Notes under the pieces: model-generated
Told to the model about the DNA's origin: nothing
What the model saw: only the letters and a program-made list of their open reading frames with translations
Database searches by the model: none
Assembly: GCF_019061365.1 (NCBI RefSeq)
Contig: NZ_JAHPPD010000004.1
Span: 1 to 58,815 of the forward strand
Direction of reading: 5' to 3'
Length of the DNA: 58,815 nt
Source: Lentilactobacillus dabitei
GTDB lineage: Bacteria; Bacillota; Bacilli; Lactobacillales; Lactobacillaceae
Program-made: the position numbers and the translations under genes
Shown here: in pieces, positions 20,069-56,487 of the stretch
How positions within the stretch are numbered: the stretch's first letter is position 1
Layout: every line of letters starts with the position of its first letter

Positions 20069-20158
20069 GAGATTGGAACAATAGACGTTTTGATCCCAGA
20101 ATTTATCTAAGTGGCTATGGCGATCTATGCGAATGATTACAAATTGGCAATTCATATA
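20069..20158 (+). repeat. Interspersed hairpin repeat, copy A (hairpin deleted)
   Basis: Matches copy C (38678-38872) at both flanks: the left flank through GTTTTGATC.CAGAATTTA, then directly the right flank from TATCTA.GTGGCTA through GATGATTAC. The 85-base hairpin core present in copy C is missing exactly between two TTTA tetramers. The rest of the gap 20159-20565 holds no gene or structure I can name. Confidence 0.75.
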
Positions 20159-20565
20159 TGTCCAAGCTGTTCGCATAAGGTGCTTGGTCAATGCAATTTT
20201 GGCTTTACATAATGGATGTGAGCAGTCCGTTGTAAGCAGCAGTTGGAGGAACATAGCCAACGGTACCCCTACTGGCATCGATTGAACAGAGAAGAGAAAC
20301 TCACGTTATCTGATCATTTAGGACAAACAAGCCACTCTCAGCATTAACGCCGGGGTACGAAAATAGTCAAATTTTAGCCGTAAATTCTTCGTATTGATTT
20401 GATATTATTTGGGACATCAGTTTTAGAAACATGGGGCTTATTGATATTGTGGATTCTATAACATAGTTTGCGGTTGATTGAAAATATGATTTCCGGGTTC
20501 TCCTAATTATGTCGGTGATTTGTAGGCGTTAATTGACTTTTTTTTCTAAAAGGAACCGAAAAGTT

Positions 20566-29283: not shown

Positions 29284-29407
29284 GAGATTGAGACGAAAGG
29301 CGATTTGATCCCAGCATTTAACGGAAAGGATCAATTATTCCTAATTTTGGAATAATTGATCCTTTTTGTTAAATGACGGAGATCAGCCGTTTGTCACAAG
29401 TTTTATC
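29284..29407 (+). repeat. Interspersed hairpin repeat, copy B
   Basis: A 27-base arm (29315-29341) pairs fully with 29349-29375 across a 7-base loop, with two G-U pairs. It is flanked by GAGATTG..GATTTGATCCCAG on the left and GATCAGCCGTTTG..TTTTATC on the right, as in copy C. Located between the SPFH gene and the exporter operon; it may also end SPFH transcription. The rest of 29248-29532 holds nothing else I can name. Confidence 0.85.
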
Positions 29408-29532
29408 AGAAAGTTAAGTTGCATTTATAAACACTTTGCCGACTCATGTCTCAACCTCGCCATTTTTTGTCAGATAATCATTGTCATGACGGCTTCTTAC
29501 AGAGAGGACCGCCACAATTTGATTTGGTAGTG

Positions 29533-37767: not shown

Positions 37768-38679
37768 ATGACTATGAAAATTTCCGGATCGATGATTAGA
37801 AAAGCCAGGAAGCAAAGGGGGCTCTCTCAAGTTCAACTTGCTGAAGGTATTTGTACGCAAGCAACCATCAGTGGGATCGAGACACAGAATACTTGTTCCA
37901 GTTTTGAAATTTTATGTAAGGTGTGCGACCGATTAAAATTGGATTTGACGCAGGTGACCAGTAATCCTGAGTATGGTGACAAATTATTTTCACTAATTGA
38001 TGAAAGTATGCGTCACAATCGGTTTCAAAAAGCAAATCAATTCATTAAGCAAATTTCTTTTGACAAATTAACTAGCAAGGCATCCCGAGGTCGCTACTCT
38101 TGTTACCTTGGTTACATCAACTTGTTCATTGATGACGATATGAATGAAGCGATTTACAACTTTAACGTCATGTTAACGCGATATTCAGCCACTGACTATA
38201 CCTTTTATCAAGCTTGGGCAAATTTAGGGCTGGGTCTGGCTTATCAGAATCAAGGCAAGCCGTTGCGAGCACAAGAATATATCGAAGTTAGTACCGAAAT
38301 TCTAAAGAAACTCAAGAGTGACGAAAAACAGGACCTGTTTGCAATTGTGGACTTGTATGTCAGAATTATCGACTTGTATTTAGATATTGAGAATTACGAT
38401 TGTGCGCTAGAATTAATTAAGGACATTTCAGGTAAACTCACCCAAGCTGATTTGATTTATAAATTAGATGTTTTAGCTGAACAGGAGTCCAAATGTTACT
38501 ATGCGAAAGGGCAGGTTGTCTGTGGAACCATGAAACAATTTGCTGCATTTTTTATCTCCCAACTAAGGGGAAATACTGAATTGTCTGAAAAAATCGTTAA
38601 GCATAATCAGGCGCATATTGTTGAAATAGTTAAGCAGGAATTGGCTAAAACTGAAGGATTACCAACACTCATTAAATGA
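37768..38679 (+). CDS. XRE-type HTH regulator with TPR-like C-terminal domain
   Basis: 303 residues. The N-terminal helix-turn-helix (about 6-63: SMIRKARKQRGLSQVQLAEG, TISGIE) is followed by about 230 residues of helical repeats of the TPR type. This architecture is shared with Rgg/PlcR/PrgX-family regulators that bind short peptides. Unusually Cys-rich for such a protein. No small peptide gene is evident next to it, and it is monocistronic, so its target and ligand are unknown. Its stop codon overlaps the first base(s) of hairpin repeat copy C. Confidence 0.85.
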   Translation: MTMKISGSMIRKARKQRGLSQVQLAEGICTQATISGIETQNTCSSFEILCKVCDRLKLDLTQVTSNPEYGDKLFSLIDESMRHNRFQKANQFIKQISFDKLTSKASRGRYSCYLGYINLFIDDDMNEAIYNFNVMLTRYSATDYTFYQAWANLGLGLAYQNQGKPLRAQEYIEVSTEILKKLKSDEKQDLFAIVDLYVRIIDLYLDIENYDCALELIKDISGKLTQADLIYKLDVLAEQESKCYYAKGQVVCGTMKQFAAFFISQLRGNTELSEKIVKHNQAHIVEIVKQELAKTEGLPTLIK

Positions 38680-38872
38680 GACTGCGATAATCGGCGTTTT
38701 GATCTCAGAATTTAACGAAGAGGACCAACTATTCCAAAATCAGGAATAGTTGGTCCTCTTCGTTAAATGGCCGAGATCAGCCGTTTGGCGCAGCTTTTAT
38801 CTAGGTGGCTACGACGATCCAAGTGGATGATTACGGATTGAAAATTGATATAAATCTCAGCCTTATTTGGGC
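38678..38872 (+). repeat. Interspersed hairpin repeat, copy C (full length)
   Basis: A perfect 26-base inverted repeat, 38710-38735 with 38743-38768, around a 7-base loop. An outer GATCTC/GAGATC pair (38701-38706 with 38773-38778) and further imperfect complementarity extend the stem. The right flank (to about 38872) matches copy A. A weak hairpin plus T run (about 38855-38886) follows. The remaining gap to 38998 shows nothing else. Confidence 0.88.
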
Positions 38873-56099: not shown

Positions 56100-56378
56100 T
56101 TAATTAATTAAAGAGTATTAAAGACTGTGATCAGAACCGTGAATTGGATTAGTTTACAGAGAGCTTATCAAGGTGGAAGTTAAGCAACTAACCAATTTGC
56201 CTCACGTCTGGGAGTCGTTTTTCTGAATTGAGTAGGAAAAAGCGGTAAGCGCGTTATTGCTGGAGTTTAGTATTAAACTCATTGAGGTCTTTCACACGAG
56301 TGGGAGACGAAATTGAGGTGGAACCACGATCACAATCGTCCTCTTAAGTCATTTTGTTGGCTTAAGAGGATTTTTTTA
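56100..56378 (+). promoter_or_regulatory. T-box riboswitch, histidine-specific (module 1)
   Basis: Stem I has base CAGA/TCTG (56132-56135 with 56207-56210), an upper stem 56144-56154 with 56186-56195 and distal AGAGAGC and GGTGGAA motifs. The specifier is CAC (56203-56205, His), placed exactly like ATG in the metN leader (same distance from the upper stem, one purine before the base stem). The T-box GAGGTGGAACCACG is at 56315-56328. The terminator CCTCTTAAG/CTTAAGAGG (56340-56348 with 56361-56369) is followed by seven T's. Confidence 0.9.
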
Positions 56379-56380
56379 TG

Positions 56381-56487
56381 ATTAATACTAAACCCCGTGA
56401 GACGGCAACTGTGAAGTTGTTGCAAACTGAGGTGGAACCGCGAAAACCATCGTCCTCTTGAGATTAATTTCTCGAGGGGACTTTTTT
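56381..56487 (+). promoter_or_regulatory. Second T-box antiterminator/terminator module without Stem I
   Basis: A second T-box GAGGTGGAACCGCG (56429-56442) with a small CAACT/AGTTG hairpin before it and a second full terminator (56453-56463 stem with 56470-56481, then T's). Only about 50 bases separate it from the first terminator, with no room for a second Stem I or specifier. Transcription must pass both switches to reach the transporter genes. Confidence 0.85.

Follow-up and report, generated by a model that had tools for sequence, protein, structure and literature searches.

A hairpin-bearing repeat of Lentilactobacillus, probably an IS1182-type mobile element that takes the place of stem-loops at gene ends

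The window, a stretch of 58,815 nt from Lentilactobacillus dabitei (contig NZ_JAHPPD010000004.1), contains two long hairpins that differ in one arm and, to match, in the other. This raises the question whether such hairpins are terminators, structured RNAs or parts of a mobile element, and by which process their arms are kept alike.

Structure and distribution of the repeat

A listing of copies with their flanks and an alignment revealed that the hairpins at 38678 (copy C) and 29284 (copy B) form the left portion of a longer unit, a small mobile DNA repeat of about 175–195 bp with the termini GAGRCTGGGACA...TGTCCCAGCCTC, of which B and C are two copies. The element starts with GAGACTGGGACA, followed by a 26-bp hairpin enclosed by the conserved TTTGATCCCAGAATTTAA and TTAAATGGCCGGGATCAGCCG, and finishes with TGTCCCAGCCTC, often with a T next; its second half occurs in a few types. 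With 175–195 nt it offers no room for a transposase gene, and none is present. The extents given in the preliminary description, 29284–29407 for B and 38678–38872 for C, were corrected to the approximate units given below, while both assignments as copies hold. The features of the window are:

20069..20168, + strand: element copy A, hairpin lost, left end and right half directly fused (right end an estimate based on the sequence)
29284..29458, + strand: element copy B, full length, left end GAGATTGAGACG, right end ATGTCTCAACCTC, then a T-rich stretch (ends approximate)
29315..29375, + strand: hairpin of B, inverted repeat 29315–29344 / 29346–29375, 90% complementary, two G-U pairs on the + strand
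38677..38679, + strand: TGA stop codon of the HTH_3-domain gene upstream (37768–38679), its last two bases being the first bases of element C
38678..38864, + strand: element copy C, full length, left end GAGACTGCGATA, right end AAATCTCAGCCTT (from copy listing and alignment, ends read from the sequence, C end approximate)
38710..38768, + strand: hairpin of C, arms 38710–38735 / 38743–38768 of 26 nt, 100% complementary, 7-nt loop AAAATCA

B and C share 78% identity across 124 nt. Their arm difference, GATCAATTATTCC in B and GACCAACTATTCC in C with a matching change in the 3' arm, was found as stated before, and arms of 26–27 bases, perfect in C and G-U compensated in B, were borne out by the inverted-repeat search and the RNA fold. 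The inverted repeat of B exhibits three departures, two G-T (G-U) pairs and one loop position, and the RNA fold of its + strand contains 27 paired bases without a break. Compared to 200 shuffles, the folds reach z values of −10.98 (C) and −10.44 (B). B and C do not, however, represent covariation at a single locus; each is a separate copy with a site of its own. A search of the element against Rfam gave no family at the gathering score, and the 13 below-threshold matches on C were mostly microRNA-type hairpins.

Elsewhere in the window, two similar stretches with an AA.TGAGGTGGAACC.CG core lie 114 bases apart at 56310–56348 and 56424–56462; they have no Rfam match at the gathering score, and we take the core to be T-box-like. 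A 35-nt inverted repeat (74%) at 1924–2013 is located between two divergently placed tRNA genes.

BLAST of the L. dabitei genome gave 72 matches, among which the same place was often counted once per strand. Among 60 genomes (L. dabitei, 23 of the same genus and 36 others of the family or order) 12 matched, including L. dabitei; none of the 36 other Lactobacillales genomes contained the element, and all matching genomes lie in Lentilactobacillus. Among the matches listed by a pattern scan with an 18-mer were L. rapi, parakefiri, otakiensis, kefiri, parabuchneri, sunkii, parafarraginis and fungorum as well as a few other organisms. The element profile found nothing in the latter except 22 nt around the 18-mer at one locus (L126), which was excluded from all counts. 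In total, the loci analysed (L numbers) contain 172 distinct profile hits, 171 of them in Lentilactobacillus. The hairpin is present in 137 copies: 42 from L. dabitei, 56 from L. rapi and 39 from elsewhere.

A covariance model built from 47 high-scoring copies added at least five strong matches on other contigs of L. dabitei, resulting in at least 47 hairpin-bearing copies there, compared to at least 56 in L. rapi. With this model, matches at 1e-24 or better were obtained in 15 of 24 Lentilactobacillus genomes, and three more match only weakly. The further copies that were sought genome-wide and in relatives thus exist, in dozens per genome. The raw counts of the model (129 in L. dabitei, 144 in L. 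rapi) were discarded as inflated in favour of the lower bounds: a check on 36 loci revealed double reports, one per strand, for most copies and scores of 50–70 bits for some other stretches. G+C-richer matches in this range away from known copies (L012 1865–1995, L023 1157–1406, L037 1114–1480, L014 1712–2330 and others) are perhaps other palindromes or an effect of rough calibration. Eight L. plantarum plasmids match over half of the query, and the one that was read carries a full copy. A phage search gave no element match. In openly licensed papers, no title or beginning of an abstract was found to describe the element.

Gene ends and alleles with and without the element

Neighbouring genes were predicted with a simple gene caller. 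Both neighbours were called for 114 of the 137 hairpin-bearing copies, orthologous copies in different species being counted apart; the rest lie near locus ends or have a neighbour missing. The gaps with an element are convergent in 62, tandem in 49 and divergent in 3 cases, compared to 48, 213 and 98 among 359 element-free gaps (p 1.4e-20). Elements are seen to lie shortly behind stop codons: the median distance from the same-strand stop codon to the element is 13 nt, and in 13 of 92 copies, C among them, the stop codon extends 1–3 bases into the element. That all copies lie downstream of plus-strand genes in the same orientation, as had been claimed, is correct for the window and only in part elsewhere, where a same-strand gene precedes 98 of 114 copies and the 49 tandem gaps divide into 36 with the element in the orientation of the gene and 13 with it reversed.

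To compare sites between species, the flanks of 28 L. dabitei copies were searched in L. rapi and those of 35 L. rapi copies in L. dabitei by BLAST. Of 54 comparable sites, 32 bear the element in both species and 22 in one; 13 further pairs, found first with the element in both species, were kept outside this count. Alleles without the element, which the preliminary description had proposed to look for in relatives, could therefore be observed directly, and in place of the element the other species often possesses another stem-loop, up to which the flanks extend. Clean junctions were obtained in seven cases (L053/L238, L067/L235, L123/L234, L133/L227, L078(3482)/L233, L085/L232 and L069(950)/L246). 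Here the other allele is a different terminator-like stem-loop reached on both sides by the flanks of both species, and the A tract ahead of it and the T tract behind it are often kept. L012/L208, L015/L201, L040/L204 and L007/L209 have stem-loops in L. rapi too, with less clean right borders; the right border is not clean in L015 and L040, and in L007/L209 the downstream flank is unmatched. L035/L213 is not comparable and forms no part of this evidence.

The folding of the empty alleles was compared with that of other gene ends. A fold-energy test was added since the test for the longest perfect stem ignores G-U pairs and single mismatches. Of the 20 empty alleles of sufficient length, 16 fold at −18 kcal/mol or lower; the other gene ends do so in 83 of 152 cases (Fisher p 0.03), with medians of −23.2 and −18.9 (Mann-Whitney p 0.005), and stretches inside genes in 69 of 150. 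The empty alleles exceed the gene ends moderately, the latter being equipped with terminators in any case. L078(4678)/L233, counted among the 20, proved on inspection to be an element copy that has diverged; its removal leaves 15 of 19 and p 0.051. In L119/L222 the empty allele bears a stem-loop similar to the hairpin of the element. Counting perfect stems gives a smaller excess: stems of at least 9 bp occur in 6 of 20 empty alleles and 13 of 152 gene ends, with medians of 6.0 and 5.5.

Outside the element ends, flank complementarity of at least 8 bp was found in 3 of 83 copies (14, 10 and 8 bp), with 0.34 expected. For one of these, L111, the stem-loop is intact in L. dabitei; it resembles an element hairpin and precedes an IS-interrupted element copy. 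As in IS1272-type replacement, an unrelated stem-loop is thus seen at the empty site and is lost or reduced at the filled one, with exceptions such as L005/L193, where the element lies beside a retained terminator. Target duplications were not noticed in an unsystematic look. The mark left by insertion would be a replaced stem-loop, as published for IS1272.

Pairing of the arms and inversion of the loop

Alignment of the arms by a mismatch-neutral procedure gave 3567 pairs in the 137 hairpins, of which 3191 are Watson-Crick, 234 G-U, 57 A-C and 85 other. After removal of copies with more than seven mismatches, totals of 223 G-U, 52 A-C and 68 other mismatches were obtained. In this per-copy alignment, mismatches present in one copy only are 39 G-U, 41 A-C and 39 other, while by subtraction those common to at least two copies are 184 G-U versus 11 A-C. 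Recent changes occur without RNA-strand preference, older shared ones with it. A previous fixed-column count (57 G-U to 48 A-C among rare mismatches) was unsafe owing to indels and was replaced by this alignment.

The hairpin varies in its middle yet remains paired. Among the 47 high-scoring copies, whose selection is biased towards the consensus, 98.7% of the cells pair, and 177 cells are changed on both sides compared to 46.7 in shuffles. In the outer stem there is no covariation, pairing being 0.739 with both real and shuffled partners (275/500 shuffles). Among 25 close orthologous pairs of L. dabitei and L. rapi the loop is inverted in four, exactly in C/L043 and L042/L198 and approximately in L016/L051 and L018/L210. 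The loop AAAATCA of C is the inverted form of TGATTTT in its L. rapi ortholog, and L042/L198 combines an exact inversion with zero arm difference. The inversion in L010/L056 is exact as well and was left uncounted on account of a gap in one assembly. In L004/L112 the arms are wholly exchanged with unchanged flanks. Of the arm changes in the same 25 pairs, 68 are one-sided and 14 two-sided; compensation is therefore partial in the short term. That diverging arms keep their pairing, as expected beforehand, is consequently true across the 47 copies and true only in part between close orthologs.

Template switching between inverted repeats is reported to homogenise the arms and to invert the spacer (PMC8604942). 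Both are seen between the orthologs here; the reported cases are Saccharomyces coding sequences. The likeness of the arms is best explained by such template switching at the DNA level, a cause favoured because loops are flipped between orthologs and because singleton mismatches have no strand preference. Of the two causes suggested at the outset, a selected structure or conversion, the second is better supported, while the G-U excess among shared mismatches fits RNA selection, which may have acted on the older copies.

Relationship to the IS1182 family and competing explanations

IS1272, a member of the IS1182 family, is reported to target unrelated inverted repeats and to replace them without target duplication, in four cases immediately downstream of genes, and has 16-bp terminal inverted repeats (PMC5678879). 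A search with PF05598 (DUF772) revealed transposases in 8 of 24 genomes of the genus, namely L. rapi and seven others, and the three proteins tested all lie above the NF033551 cut-off for IS1182. Four of the eight DUF772 loci bear GAGGCTGGGACA and a fifth, L254, the variant GGGGCTGTGACA; in L254 and L255 the end sequence is found on both sides of the transposase. The right-end consensus of the element, GAGGCTGGGACATAT, agrees over 12–14 nt with the IS ends GAGGCTGGGACATAAGTCCC (L249, L255) and GAGGCTGGGACAAAAGTCC (L248, L252). In the genome G005, the C-terminal part of the transposase was hit eight times, and seven of these hits continue into TGTCCCAGCCYC; at L262 this IS end, the one in view, is fused with the outer 3' arm of a hairpin of the element. 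The likeness to IS1272 concerns the IS1182-family transposases of the genus and their element-matching ends, the letters of the IS1272 end itself being no part of the comparison. In contrast to this autonomous IS of 1.9 kb, the element is geneless and has a long internal hairpin.

The transposase and the element do not always coincide. The L. dabitei genome (224 contigs) gave no DUF772 hit and no match to the L. rapi transposase, G006 and G015 are rich in model matches and have no such transposase, and G010 contains an IS with these ends and only three weak model matches to the element. Loss of the partner after amplification, or its being missed in the draft, would explain the missing transposase in L. 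dabitei. The common end is also short, only 12–14 nt, which counts against the link. The end AGACTGGGACATACCTCC of L. rapi was considered as that of an autonomous parent and rejected: it leads into a palindrome, and L215 contains a palindromic repeat related to it, so that it was read as another repeat rather than an IS. In L249, L254 and L255 the reading frame of the IS1182-type transposase stays open across the right inverted repeat of the IS and takes its stop codon from flanking DNA. The IS1182 copy of L254 is bordered by TGAACTGAA and TTCAGTTCA, which resemble the outer arms of a palindromic GAACTGAACCCC repeat, so that another element has apparently inserted into a palindrome here. Other palindromic repeats (L214, L216, L217, L215) have the same end TGGGACATACCTCC and different hairpins, which suggests a modular set of element families.

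The hairpin also houses a second IS with the ends GAACTGAACCCC and GAAGTGAACCCC, whose start is similar to plasmid genes annotated as IS3 family ISWco1. All 16 intact ends of this IS in L. dabitei (9 and 7) abut the hairpin loop. Two diverged ends differ: L156 is a short palindrome in a hairpin loop, and L154 lies in no evident hairpin. Of three inspected among nine IS ends in L. rapi, two are in hairpin loops and one (L187) is not obviously so. Most ends of this IS are contig ends of L. dabitei too (L146–L156, L166–L172). Short palindromes GAACTGAACCCC...GGGGTTCAGTTC without an IS body occur in L177, L178, L183 and L184, the one in L178 within the loop of a terminator-like hairpin.

With a probability of about 0.7, we regard the element as a non-autonomous, MITE-like member of the IS1182 family that spreads by stem-loop replacement. 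That it is mobile rather than a chance terminator, as suspected from the outset, is supported by its dozens of copies per genome, the filled and empty sites in a close relative and the ends common with IS1182-family IS. The probability was lowered because no family transposase was found in L. dabitei. EFAR repeats of Enterococcus, about 170 bp long with two stem-loops, are inserted into stem-loops and keep part of the target stem at their ends. The likeness of the present element to these repeats of another genus is one of description only. EFAR repeats are named as MITEs in PMC3733652.

A structured RNA, a terminator or a stabiliser of mRNA 3' ends, kept by selection on base pairing in the transcript and spread only secondarily, would account for the strong covariation in the 47 chosen copies, the 184 to 11 excess of G-U over A-C among shared mismatches, the location after stop codons and the tandem orientation of 36 versus 13. 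We nevertheless consider it unlikely, since singleton mismatches are even (39 G-U, 41 A-C), loops flip, in one pair without any arm change, the outer stem does not covary and no Rfam family is matched at the gathering score. Quite unlikely is a MITE moved by some other transposase, in which case the likeness of GGCTGGGACA to IS1182 ends would merely reflect that such ends are common in stem-loops of these genomes. It is in accordance with the three element-rich genomes in which no IS1182 gene was found, and with another palindromic repeat of L. rapi that bears the same end; it accounts poorly for the end adjoining the transposase in five of eight DUF772 loci and in seven of eight C-terminal hits of G005, and for the IS copy that sits in an element hairpin (L262).

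Like a REP sequence moved by an IS200/IS605-type (RAYT) transposase, the element is palindromic, intergenic and repeated, and it serves as target of an IS3-family IS, as REPs are reported to do for IS1397 and ISKpn1, which insert specifically into the palindromic repeat (PMC1525189). Here, however, the target is an element of about 190 bp of another kind and the IS is ISWco1-like. A unit of about 190 nt is also much longer than the 20–40 bp given for REPs (PMC3733652), and its ends match IS1182 instead. RAYT-associated REP units bear a GTAG or CGTC tag. A REP origin is thus very improbable.

For the preferred IS1182-type element, spread appears to proceed by taking the place of stem-loops at gene ends. 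An IS1182-family transposase would recognise the common ends GAGRCTGGGACA and insert the element into an existing stem-loop, usually the terminator of a gene, whereby the inner stem would be discarded and the outer arms sometimes left. Together with the neighbouring T tract the element may then act as a new terminator, and for this reason the insertions would be tolerated. Polymerase template switching across the palindrome would copy one arm onto the other and flip the loop, and is presumably the main keeper of arm likeness. The hairpin is in turn a target, for the ISWco1-like IS3-family IS in its loop and in one case for the IS1182-type IS itself. Only tentatively, and with somewhat more doubt than confidence, we extend this to a nested ecology, in which an IS1182-type MITE overwrote dozens of terminators in several species and its self-palindromic hairpin, with a loop flipped by template switching, became an insertion site both for an IS3-type IS specific to loops and for the parental IS.

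The compared sites provide natural before/after allele pairs for stem-loop-replacing transposition, of which, to our knowledge, few cases are documented. Dozens of orthologous hairpins allow arm homogenisation and loop inversion to be counted, and strong covariation in a palindrome need not imply a selected RNA structure. For the host, the findings suggest that a mobile element may supply genes with their terminators and sometimes with the stop codon.
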